From positions 62,001 through 126,000 of the forward strand of contig BGOM01000024.1 of NCBI GenBank assembly GCA_003569245.1: a DNA stretch of 64,000 nucleotides. The letters are read 5' to 3'. A program made the translations under genes and the position numbers. This document shows positions 51,257 through 58,680 of this stretch, piece by piece (position 1 is the stretch's first letter; every line of letters starts with the position of its first letter). Under the pieces are notes generated by a model. The model was not told where the DNA came from, made no database searches, and worked only from the letters and a program-made list of their open reading frames with translations. Origin of the DNA: Opitutia bacterium. Lineage in GTDB: Bacteria > Verrucomicrobiota > Verrucomicrobiia > Opitutales > UBA953.

Positions 51257-53728
51257 ATGCTCCCGACTTTCCTCCGGCTCGCCGCCGCGGCGACGACCCT
51301 CACCCTCGCCGCCGCCCCCGCCGAATGGTCCGGCATCTACCCGAGCCTGGCTTATTTCAACAACGAGGGCGAATGCGGGACCGGCGCCGTCGTGCCTTGG
51401 GCCGACCGTCTCTGGGTCATCACCTACGGTCCGCACCTGCCGTATGGCTCGAGCGACAAGCTCTATGAGATCACTCCCGATCTGGAGCTCGTGGTGCGAC
51501 CCGAGAGCGTCGGCGGCACGCCGGCCAACCGGATGATCCACCGCGAGTCCAACCAGCTCATCATCGGTCCCTACTTCATCGACGCCCAGCGGAACGTCCG
51601 CGTCATCCCCCCGAAGCTGATGCCCGGTCGCCTCACGGGCAACGCGCGTCACCTGACCGACCCCGCGAACAAGGTCTACTTCGCGACCATGGAGGACGGC
51701 CTCTACGAGGTCGATGTGCGCACGCTCGCCGTGAAGGGTCTCATCAGGGAGATCAAGAACGTGCCCAAGCCCGGTCAGACCGCGGAGGTCAGCCCGGCGA
51801 CGATCACCTCCACGCTGGCCGGCTACCACGGCAAAGGCCTCTATTCGGGGCAAGGCCAGGTCATCCTCGCGAACAACGGCGAGCAAAGCGCGCAGGCGCT
51901 GGTCGACCCGACCATCGTGAGCGGAGGGCTGGGCTCCTTCAACGGCGAAGGCAACTGGAAGCTCATCCGCCGCAACCAATTCACCGAAGTCACCGGTCCG
52001 GGCGGCCTGACCGGCAACGCCGACCCGGCGAAGGACCCCCTCTGGACCATCGGCTGGGATTTCCGCTCGCTCATCCTGATGGTGATGGAGGACGGCAAGT
52101 GGACGAGTTTCCGCCTGCCCAAGGGCAGCCACTCCTACGATGGCGCGCATGGCTGGAACACCGAGTGGCCGCGCATCCGCGACATCGGCGAGGAAGGCTC
52201 GCGCCTGATGACGATGCACGGCCTCTTCTGGACCTTCCCCGCGGGCTTCTCGGCGAAGCAGTCCGCCGGCCTTGCGCCGCGCTCCGCCTACCTCAAGGTC
52301 ATCGGCGACTTCACGCGCTGGCAGGACCGCCTCGTCTTCGGCTGCGACGACACCGCCAAGTCCGAGTTCCTCAACAAGCGCGCGGCCAAGGGCACCCTCG
52401 GCGCGCCCGGACAGTCGCAGTCCAACCTGTGGTTCACGCCGCTCGACGCCACGCAGAAGCTTGGTCCCGCGCTGGGTCGCGGCGGCGTGTGGGTCGACGA
52501 ACCGGTGAAGGCCGGGGTCGCGTCGGACGCCTTCCTCTTCGCGGGCTTCGCCAAGCGGGCGCTGTTCCTCGGTCACGACGGCGCGGCCGCGACCCGCTTC
52601 ACCCTCGAGGTCGACCGCCGGGGCGACGGCCGGTGGACGGCCCTGCGCGAGGTGCCGGTCGCGGCCGGCGTCGCCGGCGAGTGGCTGCAGTTCCCCGCCG
52701 AGGAAGCCGGCGCCTGGATCCGCGTGGTCTCCGACCGCGACCAGGCGAAGGCGACGGCGCAGTTCCAGTATGCGGCGGCCGACCCGCGCGGGACGGAGCG
52801 CGACCCGCTCTTCGCCGGGCTCGCCGAGGCGGCGGCCCCCGCGCGGCGCGGCGCCTTCCTGCTCACGCGCGGCGGCAACCTGCGCACGCTTTCCGTCCTC
52901 CCCGCCGACGTCACGGCCGGCGGGACCAAGACCGCCGCGGCCTACGAGCTGACCGCCGAGATGAAGCTGGTCCGGCAGGCCGACCCGAAGGTGACCGAGT
53001 TCGTCGCCAAGCATACGCCCATCCCCGCGGGCGTCCTCTCGGTCGACGCGGCCTCGGTGATCCTCGCGGAAGGCGGCCGCCGCTGGCGGCTGCCGCGCGC
53101 GGGTTCGCAGGACGCGGCCCACGACGCCTTGCTGACCGCCGGCGCGCTGCGCAAGGCCCGCGAGGTCTGCACCGAACGCGACCTCCTGCAGGCCCACGGC
53201 AGCTTCTACGAACTGCCCGCGCTCAACGCCGGCGGCGCGATCCGGCTCCGCCCCGTCGCCACGAGCGACCTCGCCGTGCACGACTTCTGTTCCTACCGCG
53301 GGTTGCTGGTCCTCTCCGGCCTCGACCCGGCCGCGGGCGCGACCAACCGTCACGTGATCCGCTCCGAGGACGGCGCGGCCGCCGTGTGGGTGGGCGCCGC
53401 CGATGACCTCTGGAAACTCGGCAAGCCGCGCGGGCATGGGGGTCCGTGGGCGAAGACCGCCGCCCAGGCCGATGTCCCGTCCGACCCGTACCTGATGACA
53501 GGCTACGACCGCAAGACGCTGTCCCTCGAGAATCACTCCGACGATACCGTGCGCATCACGCTCGAGCTCGACGCGGCCGGCGACGGCCGCTTCGCGCCGT
53601 GGCGCACGTTCCGCCTGCAGGCGGGCGAACGGCTCCACGAGCGGCTGCCCGACGGTCTCAACGCCTACTGGGTGCGCGCGGTCTCGAACAAGGACGCCGC
53701 CCTCACCTGCCAACTCACCTACGAATGA
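51257..53728 (+). CDS. Large secreted protein of unknown function, probable beta-propeller
   Basis: 823 aa. Signal peptide MLPTFLRLAAAATTLTLAAAP. The N-terminal half (about 25-360) has repeated short blocks like a beta-propeller (WADRLWVITYGPHLPYGSS, YFATMEDGLYEVDVRT, GSHSYDGAHGWNTEWPRI). Two similar beta-rich modules recur: FLGHDGAAATRFTLEVDRRG (about 438) and LENHSDDTVRITLELDAAGD (about 757), both near D-G-R-W/F and W-x-x-x-R. It is internally duplicated. I recognise no catalytic residues. It overlaps the next gene by 4 nt (ATGA), so these form an operon with the tandem paralogues. Confidence 0.8.
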   Translation: MLPTFLRLAAAATTLTLAAAPAEWSGIYPSLAYFNNEGECGTGAVVPWADRLWVITYGPHLPYGSSDKLYEITPDLELVVRPESVGGTPANRMIHRESNQLIIGPYFIDAQRNVRVIPPKLMPGRLTGNARHLTDPANKVYFATMEDGLYEVDVRTLAVKGLIREIKNVPKPGQTAEVSPATITSTLAGYHGKGLYSGQGQVILANNGEQSAQALVDPTIVSGGLGSFNGEGNWKLIRRNQFTEVTGPGGLTGNADPAKDPLWTIGWDFRSLILMVMEDGKWTSFRLPKGSHSYDGAHGWNTEWPRIRDIGEEGSRLMTMHGLFWTFPAGFSAKQSAGLAPRSAYLKVIGDFTRWQDRLVFGCDDTAKSEFLNKRAAKGTLGAPGQSQSNLWFTPLDATQKLGPALGRGGVWVDEPVKAGVASDAFLFAGFAKRALFLGHDGAAATRFTLEVDRRGDGRWTALREVPVAAGVAGEWLQFPAEEAGAWIRVVSDRDQAKATAQFQYAAADPRGTERDPLFAGLAEAAAPARRGAFLLTRGGNLRTLSVLPADVTAGGTKTAAAYELTAEMKLVRQADPKVTEFVAKHTPIPAGVLSVDAASVILAEGGRRWRLPRAGSQDAAHDALLTAGALRKAREVCTERDLLQAHGSFYELPALNAGGAIRLRPVATSDLAVHDFCSYRGLLVLSGLDPAAGATNRHVIRSEDGAAAVWVGAADDLWKLGKPRGHGGPWAKTAAQADVPSDPYLMTGYDRKTLSLENHSDDTVRITLELDAAGDGRFAPWRTFRLQAGERLHERLPDGLNAYWVRAVSNKDAALTCQLTYE

Positions 53729-56457: not shown

Positions 56458-56997
56458 ATGAGCCAGGACAAGCCCATCCCCGACGCCATCGACGGCACCG
56501 AGCTGCACTTCGCGGTCATCGCCGCCGGCTACAACGGGGAGCTCGTGGACGCGCTGCTGCGCCGGGTGAACCGGACCCTCCGGAACGGCAACGTGCCGGA
56601 GGCCAACATCGTCGTGGTCCGCGTGCCGGGCTCCGGCGAGATCCCCTACGCGGCCTACATGAGCGCGATGAGCGGGGACTACGACTGCGTCATCGGGCTC
56701 GGCGTGGTCATCGCCGGCGACACCCCGCACCACGAGGTCATCGCCCATTCCACCGCCCACGCGCTCCAGGACGCCGCCCTGCGCGCCGAGGTACCCATCA
56801 TCAACGGGATCGTCGTGACGAACGACCGCGCCCAGGCCGAGCTGCGTTGCAAGGGCGCCCTCGACCGCGGCTGCGAGTTCGCCCAGGCCGCCCTCACGAT
56901 GGCGTACCACCGCGTCACGCTCGGCGCCCGCCTCGACGAGGTCGACGCCGAGGAGCGCTCGAAGCGCGACGGCAAGGACCCCTTCGCCCAGAACTGA
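56458..56997 (+). CDS. ribH: 6,7-dimethyl-8-ribityllumazine synthase
   Basis: 179 aa. It condenses the DHBP synthase product with the ribitylamino-pyrimidine to lumazine, the last step but one of riboflavin synthesis. Typical segments: FAVIAAGYNGELVDALLRR, VVRVPGSGEIPYAAYMSAM, GLGVVIAGDTPHHEVIAHST and PIINGIVVTNDRAQAELRC. The Phe of the F-N-x-x-I/Y-x-D motif is Tyr-Asn here. It overlaps the S10-NusB fusion gene by 1 nt (TGATG), reproducing the common ribH-nusB order. No promoter of the 35-nt type was seen. Confidence 0.95.
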   Translation: MSQDKPIPDAIDGTELHFAVIAAGYNGELVDALLRRVNRTLRNGNVPEANIVVVRVPGSGEIPYAAYMSAMSGDYDCVIGLGVVIAGDTPHHEVIAHSTAHALQDAALRAEVPIINGIVVTNDRAQAELRCKGALDRGCEFAQAALTMAYHRVTLGARLDEVDAEERSKRDGKDPFAQN

Positions 56998-57767
56998 TGG
57001 ACGCCCCTTCCCCCGCTTCCGCCCGGATCCGTATCCGGATCCACGGCCTCGACCACCGCCTCGTCGACCAATCCGCCGGGGAGATCGCCGCGCAGGCCGC
57101 GCGCACGGGCGCCCGCGTCAACGGCCCGCTGCCGCTGCCCTCGCGCGTCGAGGTCGCCCGCGCCGCCGGCCAGGACGAGATCCGCGCCCACCACCGCCTC
57201 GTCGAGGTCATCGGGGCCAACGCGCAGACGATCCAGGTCATGCAGCGCCTCAACCTGCCGGCCGGCATCGACATCACCATCGTGCAGCCGGACGAACCGG
57301 TCGTCCCGGACCCCGCCGCCGCCCCGGCCAAGCGCAACCGCCGCCATGACAACCGCGTGGCGGCCGTCCAGTTCCTCTGCGCCTGGGAAAGCCAGCGGCA
57401 CGCCGACCTGGTCACCGCGCTCTTCGACTTCCTCCACGGCCGCGAGCAGGGCCGCGAGTACTTCGCCTTCGCCGAGGAACTGATCCACGGGGTCATCCGC
57501 GACGTCACCCTGATCGACGAGGTCGTCACCAAATACGCGACGAACTGGGCGTTCGGCCGCATCGCCCGCGTCGACCTGGCCATCCTGCGCCTGGCGGTGT
57601 TCGAGCTGATGCGCCGCACGGACATCCCGCCGATCGTCAGCATCAACGAGGCCGTCGACATCGCGAAGGAGTTCTCCACCGAGGAGTCCCGCCGCTTCGT
57701 CAACGGCATCCTCGACAGCTACATGTCCGAGCTCGGCCGCGACCCGCGCAAGGCCGAGGGCGGCTGA
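56997..57767 (+). CDS. nusB: NusE (S10)-NusB fusion, single-chain transcription antitermination factor
   Basis: 256 aa in one uninterrupted frame. Residues about 10-96 match ribosomal protein uS10/NusE: RIRIRIHGLDHRLVDQSAGE (10-29), TGARVNGPLPLPSR (37-50), EIRAHHRLVEV (61-71), VMQRLNLPAGIDITI (81-95). The segment between PLPS and EIRAH is only 11 residues, against 21 in E. coli S10, so the ribosome-binding loop is shortened. Residues 97-113 are a Pro/Ala linker. Residues 114-256 are NusB: RRHDNRVAAVQFLCAWE, EELIHGVIRDVTLIDEVV, GRIARVDLAILRLAVFEL, PPIVSINEAVDIAKEFSTEE, VNGILDSY. NusB and S10 normally form a heterodimer on boxA RNA. It sits after ribH and before ftsY. Confidence 0.93.
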   Translation: MDAPSPASARIRIRIHGLDHRLVDQSAGEIAAQAARTGARVNGPLPLPSRVEVARAAGQDEIRAHHRLVEVIGANAQTIQVMQRLNLPAGIDITIVQPDEPVVPDPAAAPAKRNRRHDNRVAAVQFLCAWESQRHADLVTALFDFLHGREQGREYFAFAEELIHGVIRDVTLIDEVVTKYATNWAFGRIARVDLAILRLAVFELMRRTDIPPIVSINEAVDIAKEFSTEESRRFVNGILDSYMSELGRDPRKAEGG

Positions 57768-57774
57768 CCCACGG

Positions 57775-58680
57775 ATGGCGGGCGGTTTCCTCGATAGGCT
57801 GAAGGCCGGACTGAGCCGCACCGCGGACGCGGTGGCGAACCTGCTCGCCCGCCCGATGGACGCCGGTGCCGCCGAGGGCCTGCGCGAGCGCCTGCTGGCG
57901 GCCGACTTCGGGCCGGCGACCGCCGACGAGGTGGTCGCGGCGGCGCAGGCCGCCTGGAAGGCGGACGGCGGCTTACGTCAGGCCGGCGCGGCCGAGGCCG
58001 CGGCCGCCGTCATCGAACGCGCCCTCACGCCGGCCGCGACGAAGCCCCTCGCGACCGGCCGGCCGCTTGTCGTGATGCTGCTGGGCGTCAACGGCGCGGG
58101 CAAGACGACGACGGCCGCGAAGCTCGCCTGGCGCTGGCAGCAGGAAGGTCGGACCTGCCTGCTCGGCGCCTGCGATACCTTCCGCGCCGCGGCCGGCGAG
58201 CAACTTTCCGCCTGGGCCGACCGGCTCGGCGTCGAGGTCGTCGGCGGCGCCGCCGGTGCCGACCCGGCCGCGGTGGCGTTCGACGCCGTCAAGGCGGGGA
58301 CCGCCCGCGGCCGCGACCTGGTGCTCCTCGACACGGCGGGCCGCCTCCACACCAAGGCCCACCTGCTGGAGGAACTCCGCAAGGTCGTGCGCGTGACCGC
58401 CAAGGCGCAGGCCGACGCCCCGCACGAGAAGTGGCTGGTGCTCGACGGCTCCCTCGGGGCCAACTCCATCGAACAGGCCCGCATCTTCCACGAGGCCGTC
58501 GGCCTCACGGGGCTCGTGGTCACCAAGCTCGACGGCACCGCCCGCGGCGGCGCGCTCGTCGCCGTGGTCCGCGAGCTGGGCGTCCCCGTGCGCTTCATCG
58601 GGCTCGGCGAGAAGCCGGAGGACCTCCAGGCTTTCGATCCGCGGGGCTACGCCCGCTCGGTCACCGGCCTCGGCGGCTAG
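57775..58680 (+). CDS. ftsY: Signal recognition particle receptor FtsY
   Basis: 301 aa, the NG-domain-only length without the acidic A domain. It receives SRP-ribosome complexes at the inner membrane and hydrolyses GTP. G-1 loop GVNGAGKTTT (104-113), ACDTFRAAAGEQLSAWADRL (insertion-box region), LLDTAGRLHTKAHLLEEL (G-3), VVTKLDGTARGGALVAV (G-4) and FIGLGEKPEDLQAFDP (closing). It begins 7 nt after the nusB stop. FtsY is used by the SRP pathway for membrane-protein insertion. Confidence 0.96.
   Translation: MAGGFLDRLKAGLSRTADAVANLLARPMDAGAAEGLRERLLAADFGPATADEVVAAAQAAWKADGGLRQAGAAEAAAAVIERALTPAATKPLATGRPLVVMLLGVNGAGKTTTAAKLAWRWQQEGRTCLLGACDTFRAAAGEQLSAWADRLGVEVVGGAAGADPAAVAFDAVKAGTARGRDLVLLDTAGRLHTKAHLLEELRKVVRVTAKAQADAPHEKWLVLDGSLGANSIEQARIFHEAVGLTGLVVTKLDGTARGGALVAVVRELGVPVRFIGLGEKPEDLQAFDPRGYARSVTGLGG

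Follow-up and report, generated by a model that had tools for sequence, protein, structure and literature searches.

Does a ribosomal protein that is joined to a transcription factor still serve the ribosome? The question is raised by one gene in a 64,000-nucleotide stretch of bacterial DNA (hereafter the window), which reads as ribosomal protein S10 (NusE) continued into NusB. S10 is a classic moonlighting ribosomal protein. Whether its free form couples the supply of ribosomes to rRNA transcription is difficult to examine, since rpsJ is an essential gene. In E. coli, NusB and S10 are described as binding boxA, with S10-NusG proposed as the route to RNA polymerase (PMC10931766, PMC5725501, PMC6614801). 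The features of the locus are as follows.

56458 to 56997, plus strand: ribH (lumazine synthase; DMRL_synthase, 124 bits), directly upstream of the fusion
56997 to 57767, plus strand: S10(NusE)-NusB fusion gene, 256 aa plus stop, single open frame
57021 to 57284, plus strand: S10/NusE-like domain, residues 9-96
57141 to 57182, plus strand: shortened ribosome-binding loop, residues 49-62, 14 aa (24 in canonical rpsJ)
57285 to 57329, plus strand: Pro/Ala-rich linker, residues 97-111, about 15 aa
57330 to 57764, plus strand: NusB domain, residues 112-256
57775 to 58680, plus strand: ftsY (SRP54 GTPase domain, 233 bits), directly downstream of the fusion

One frame with an S10 and a NusB domain

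The frame runs from the ATG at 56997 to the TGA at 57765-57767 and has no internal stop. The original prediction had described one continuous 256-aa frame with an S10/NusE-like domain, a Pro/Ala linker and a complete NusB domain. Pfam matches to both domains confirm the S10-NusB fusion: Ribosomal_S10 covers residues 12-95 (E 5e-12, 46 bits, cut-off 21) and NusB covers residues 118-242 (E 3e-30, 106 bits). Among the NCBIfam models, the NusB equivalog TIGR01951 is passed with 124 bits (cut-off 88), and weaker RsmB matches are also seen. Both bacterial S10 equivalog models match the fused S10 at 70 of 85 and 64 of 72.75 bits, below the cut-offs that mark ribosomal uS10, as expected of a divergent S10 copy. 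The ribH stop and the fusion start overlap by one base (TGATG), so that the gene occupies the position of nusB in a ribH-nusB operon. All 13 outgroup NusB genes that were read also come after ribH, at distances of -1 to 152 bases.

The AlphaFold2 model of the fusion, built from 31 rows, is of moderate quality (mean pLDDT 78.7, pTM 0.69). Its S10 elements come in the order of the family (E10-17, H20-36, E40-42, E50-54, E62-72, H76-83, E92-96) and its NusB part consists of seven helices. Its confidence drops at the beginning of the chain, at the tip of the loop and in the linker, with low pLDDT at 100-104 and 108-110. The best chains found for it by Foldseek include S10 of the expressome 6ztj and of 5ms0, 5lm7 and 2kvq, and NusB of 3d3c, 1tzt, 3d3b and 3imq, and the listed matches include NusB and S10 chains from NusB-S10 complexes. 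No PDB sequence matched both domains among the matches listed (60 of 73). Residues 10-96 are thus predicted by AlphaFold2 and Foldseek to take the S10 fold on which the original prediction depended, and in fold and Pfam family the domain belongs to NusE/uS10.

The source genome (G000) is an assembly of 24 contigs that is 91% complete. A normal rpsJ, which had been expected elsewhere, is found as a canonical copy separate from the fusion (C16:49797-50081, 125.5 bits), between genes that read from their translations as fusA and rplC/rplD. This rules out the fused S10 as the sole S10 of the cell. No second NusB was found in this genome, and the fusion is the only NusB detected there. NusG is present in all five genomes tested, the source genome among them. 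Two more NusG-like genes of the source genome (C23:74545-75027 and C18:2950-3432) fall below the NusG cut-off with identical scores; they could stem from duplication of a region or represent a specialised NusG paralog. G019, G086, G087 and G098 each have one second gene of this kind as well.

Distribution and history in the host genus

The taxonomic spread of the two-domain protein, which the original prediction had proposed to look into, was surveyed with the window protein as query in 79 genomes of the family, 55 of the host genus (order Opitutales, lake bacteria) and 24 of four other genera. A match across both domains was found in 37 of the 55 and in none of the 24, where NusB and S10 are separate in every genome. 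In G025 the two halves of the fusion lie at contig ends. NusB without S10 occurs in nine genomes of the genus (G006, G018, G081, G084, G086, G090, G095, G097 and G098), and NusB was not found in eight (G005, G008, G020, G022, G031, G035, G036 and G092). In an order-level search of 372 genomes, all stop-free two-domain matches among those listed belong to the host genus. The same search gave a longer match with one stop in G258 and G362 (query 34 to 254 and 36 to 253, respectively); G258 has one S10 in the phylum sample described next, and G362 lies outside that sample. In the sample of 387 genomes of the phylum, which includes three of the host genus, an S10 match was obtained in 370, and two S10 domains at E <= 1e-4 only in the source genome. 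The second S10 of G019 scores 7.8e-4, above this threshold.

A second collection yielded 26 loci (L034-L059) that cover at least residues 5-254, among the best 80 of 362 matches. It overlaps the genus genomes in part (L034 looks like G014), and its scan reaches close relatives only, with distant bacteria beyond its range. All but two of the 26 are titled Opitutae, Opitutia, Opitutales, Opitutus or Verrucomicrobia/Verrucomicrobiota. The contigs of L036 and L054 are titled Akkermansia muciniphila and Polynucleobacter meluiroseus, and bear the fusion at 71-74% identity; they look like mislabelled bins. An origin of the fusion in sequencing or assembly, which would have undone the original prediction, is ruled out by the recurrence in 37 genomes of the genus. 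The 26 loci, partly from the same genomes, agree, and together the two surveys exclude chance or a single assembly error.

The history of the fusion was read from a 13-marker tree and from a 33-genome tree without NusB columns. The plain-NusB genomes other than G086 are sister to a fusion clade with full support in both trees, and are nested among fusion genomes. In the 13-marker tree they number eight, and G031, where no NusB was found, falls with them. G086 is placed weakly: it groups with G005, G019 and G036 in the 13-marker tree (99.4/66) and sits at the genus base without a resolved position in the 33-genome tree, and it may have diverged early without ever acquiring the fusion. On the 33-genome tree, a single clade of all fusion genomes is rejected (AU p = 1.6e-7). 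The distribution of the fusion takes three changes on the best tree, and two are forced by the strongly supported branches. We prefer one gain near the genus base, with a loss in the eight-genome clade and perhaps a second loss in G086, over several gains, because the loop deletion and the S10-linker-NusB layout are common to all 37 fusions. The loss of the S10 domain in the eight-genome clade is well supported; several independent gains of the fusion are compatible with these trees.

Ten of the 37 fused domains were placed in an S10 tree, which rejects neither one origin for them (p = 0.55) nor their descent from the rpsJ of the genus (p = 0.32); the former result also favours one gain. The fused S10 may have come from an rpsJ copy of the host genus. 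A long stem, with 1.59 changes per column, leads to nine of the ten fused rows, all but that of G019; the branch of the G019 domain has 5.26 changes per column and its placement is unreliable. A separate S10 paralog in the plain-NusB genomes, as expected if the fusion had been split and its S10 domain not lost, was rejected: PF00338 gives one S10 in seven of the nine, and found no S10 in G095 (82% complete) and G097 (66%).

The eight genomes of the plain-NusB clade are small (1.2-1.5 Mb), and most fusion genomes have about 1.8-2.7 Mb, a few incomplete ones less. Loss of the S10 domain may go with genome reduction, with G086 (2.3 Mb) as an exception. The most reduced fused S10 is that of G019 (C2:61165-61878; loci L030 and L133): its loop is down to about 9 residues, and its Pfam match is weak at 20.7 bits, or 29.3 bits when neighbours in frame are counted. 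It has an in-frame ATG with GAGG upstream, 13 codons ahead of the NusB part. This genome may be heading toward loss of the S10 domain.

Loop, contact residues, selection and a boxA-like site

The 37 fused S10 domains were aligned with 43 canonical rpsJ proteins, all of the host genus. All 37 fusions lack the loop tip (rpsJ positions 50-58), and all 43 rpsJ have it. Between PLP and R-x-H the window protein has 14 residues, 10 fewer than the 24 of canonical rpsJ, a length read from four rpsJ sequences. The other fusions mostly have 14 as well; clade C has 15 and G019 about 9. The S10 chains of solved structures align along the length of the window domain with a 10-residue gap in the loop. The original prediction had put the cut at about 21 to about 11 residues; the difference agrees. 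The window protein therefore lacks the long 30S-binding loop of ribosomal uS10.

The E. coli S10 residues reported to touch NusB are H15, R16, D19 and V26 (PMC8341153). R16 and D19 are invariant in all 37 fused S10 domains, as are further residues common to rpsJ and the fused S10. Position 15 is Y in 25, F in eight and H in four of the fusions, and position 26 varies. On the other side of the interface, the NusB groove residues that face NusE are Y18, L22, E75 and E81 in E. coli numbering, where the window protein has C, S, G and D. At position 18, 25 of the 37 fusions have C, 11 have Y and one has V; all nine plain NusB of the genus have Y there, as do 12 of 13 outgroups, the remaining one having a gap. 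At position 75 the fusions have G (20), E (nine), A (seven) or T (one), and the plain NusB have E (six), D (two) or S (one). All 46 aligned NusB of the genus have D at position 81. The groove changes represent few independent events, so that no p-value is given. We read this drift as a probable relaxation of constraint on a groove whose partner is already tethered; it could also mean an altered pairing of S10 with NusB.

The NusG pocket of S10 is reported to involve M88 (PMC8116511), and position 88 is R or Q in the fusions and K or R in the rpsJ of the genus. At position 86, Glu occurs in all 43 rpsJ proteins of the genus and in 20 of 20 other rpsJ of Verrucomicrobiota at the order or phylum level. 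The fused copies carry Ala (26) or Val (11) at this site. E. coli S10 has Ala there, and the nusE71 change A86D is said to harm lambda N antitermination.

Selection was followed in pairs within five fusion clades, which hold 36 of the 37 fusions (G019 was left out) and give 3, 10, 136, 3 and 28 pairs. The pairs share branches and the values are therefore descriptive. In the order of the clades, dN/dS is 0.163, 0.064, 0.082, 0.016 and 0.040 for the S10 domain and 0.063, 0.031, 0.035, 0.039 and 0.062 for the NusB domain. The linker has 0.574, a value not computable, 0.131, 0.172 and 0.325, and is the highest of the three parts in the four clades where it could be computed. The rpsJ of a subset of the pairs gave 0.167, 0.029, 0.056, 0 and 0.058. 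The fused S10 is thus constrained and under purifying selection, and its dN exceeds that of rpsJ in every one of the five clades. Production of a separate NusB by internal initiation was rejected: from 25 codons before to 20 codons after the KRNRR motif, the 37 fusions have no in-frame start codon with a Shine-Dalgarno-like motif in common. Only G019 has an ATG preceded by GAGG in this region, and G004, G019 and G030 have a GTG preceded by GAGG or AGGAG.

In 13 of the 55 genus genomes a 16S rRNA leader was located by way of the conserved beginning of 16S. All 13 leaders carry CGGTTCTTTGA(G/A)AGTTCA, and in all 13 the boxA-like GGTTCTTTGA lies 210-222 nt before 16S. In these leaders TTCTTTGA, 210-222 nt ahead of the 16S start, stands just past what appears by eye to be a short inverted repeat. 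The boxA consensus reported for gamma-proteobacteria is GYTCTTTAANA (PMC5725501), and GTTCTTTGAGA differs from this gamma-proteobacterial pattern at one position. The leader 22-mer was found with zero mismatches in 25 of the 79 family genomes, all of the host genus and including the plain-NusB genome G097; a reversed control pattern gave 0 matches. Neither the leader nor the 22-mer was found in the source genome, whose leader may be unassembled. An RF00177 search found no 16S in the 55 genus genomes and carries little weight, since its control was positive in only 9 of 14. Autoregulation through a boxA near the fusion gene was considered and rejected: there is no exact match, and the one match with one mismatch, at 51460, compares with 2.9 expected by chance.

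Function and relation to known systems

We think that the fusion is a dedicated natural single-chain NusB:NusE antitermination factor, and put the probability of this reading at about three in four. The sequences are best read as an antitermination module that would be unable to serve the ribosome. In E. coli, the S10 loop is described as contacting 16S h31, and loop-deleted S10 as fully functional in antitermination (PMC8249722, citing Luo 2008). NusB-bound S10 is described as barred from the ribosome (PMC10931766). The RNA polymerase face of S10 is described as overlapping its NusG-CTD face, opposite the NusB and ribosome sides (PMC4642336). By analogy, the fusion would have the parts that antitermination needs, without a part that is dispensable there but used by the ribosome. 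On this reading, an in-frame union of an rpsJ copy with the 5' end of nusB would have taken place around the origin of one Opitutales genus, and the 30S-binding loop of the joined S10 would have been trimmed. The S10 and NusB domains would fold onto each other like the separate E. coli proteins and bind boxA on the emerging rRNA leader, with the free side of S10 presented to NusG or RNA polymerase. The outcome would be the read-through of rRNA operons, with the ribosomal role of S10 left to the separate rpsJ. Intramolecular docking of S10 on NusB, binding of boxA and NusG, and exclusion from ribosomes are what we infer for this protein. Nine genomes of the genus lack the S10 domain and G019 has an eroded one, so the genus as a whole does not require it. 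The existence of plain-NusB lineages, together with the common boxA-like site, fits a module that seems interchangeable with a separate NusB plus S10.

Three other functions have to be weighed. The S10 domain might be a built-in competitor or regulator that fills the NusB groove against free ribosomal S10 and so checks or tunes NusB. The drift of groove positions 18 and 75 in many fusions, where position 18 is Tyr in all 21 aligned unfused NusB, would suit such a role, and so would a fused S10 that evolves far faster than rpsJ, as the long stem of the S10 tree indicates. A permanent block would, however, abolish NusB function, as the fusion is the only NusB found. In addition, R16, D19 and several residues shared with rpsJ are invariant in the fused S10, NusB is strongly constrained (dN/dS 0.03-0.06) and 25 genomes retain the boxA-like site. 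We regard the regulator as improbable.

It is equally doubtful that the S10 domain is a passive or decaying passenger that is being lost while NusB pairs with ribosomal S10 as usual. This would account for the nine genomes of the genus that have no S10 domain and for G019, where the domain is most reduced in loop length and an in-frame ATG with GAGG precedes NusB. A passenger would not be expected to be under purifying selection in all five fusion clades tested, to match the S10 profile to position 97 in all fused domains except those of G019 and the split G025, or to be retained since near the genus base, as the favoured history has it. The least plausible is that the fused S10 works in the ribosome as a second form of S10 that carries NusB. 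It is homologous to rpsJ and matches the bacterial S10 models below cut-off, but the loop tip is deleted in every fusion, NusB-bound S10 is described as kept off the ribosome (PMC10931766), and 43 of the 55 genus genomes have a full canonical rpsJ, with a partial copy in G022.

If the fusion is a single-chain antitermination factor, the transcription job of S10 has been split from its ribosome job. It is somewhat more probable than the contrary that a loop-less paralog joined to NusB has become a self-contained antitermination factor, that rRNA transcription has thereby become independent of free ribosomal S10, and that at least one lineage, perhaps two, has reverted to two proteins. Two jobs that are apparently separated in nature would allow the antitermination S10 to be altered or removed without touching the ribosome. 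Close relatives with and without the fusion offer a ready comparison, and a one-chain NusB-NusE would be a handy reagent for structures of rRNA antitermination complexes.

In the titles and abstract openings listed from an open-access library, which cover part of the matching papers, we found no description of a natural S10-NusB fusion, and a report may exist elsewhere. The nearest known system is the NusB:NusE heterodimer of E. coli (PDB 3d3b, 3d3c and 3imq); PDB 3r2c shows the Aquifex pair with boxA RNA. Heterodimer and fusion share the same two domains, the NusB-contact residues R16 and D19, a boxA-like site in the rRNA leader and the presence of NusG and of a separate S10. They differ in that the heterodimer has two chains and uses ribosomal S10 itself, whereas the fusion is one chain and uses a separate S10 paralog with a naturally cut loop. 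RsmB also has a NusB-type domain inside a fusion protein. There the NusB-like N-terminal domain stands ahead of an rRNA methyltransferase, and there is no S10 domain. An engineered, loop-deleted NusE of 86 residues is described as having been used with NusB, in structure determination and NMR (PMC4642336). It resembles the fused domain in the loop region removed, in an S10 core of near-equal length and in the NusB context. The engineered protein is laboratory-made and unfused, whereas in the fusion both the cutting of the loop and the joining to NusB are the work of evolution.
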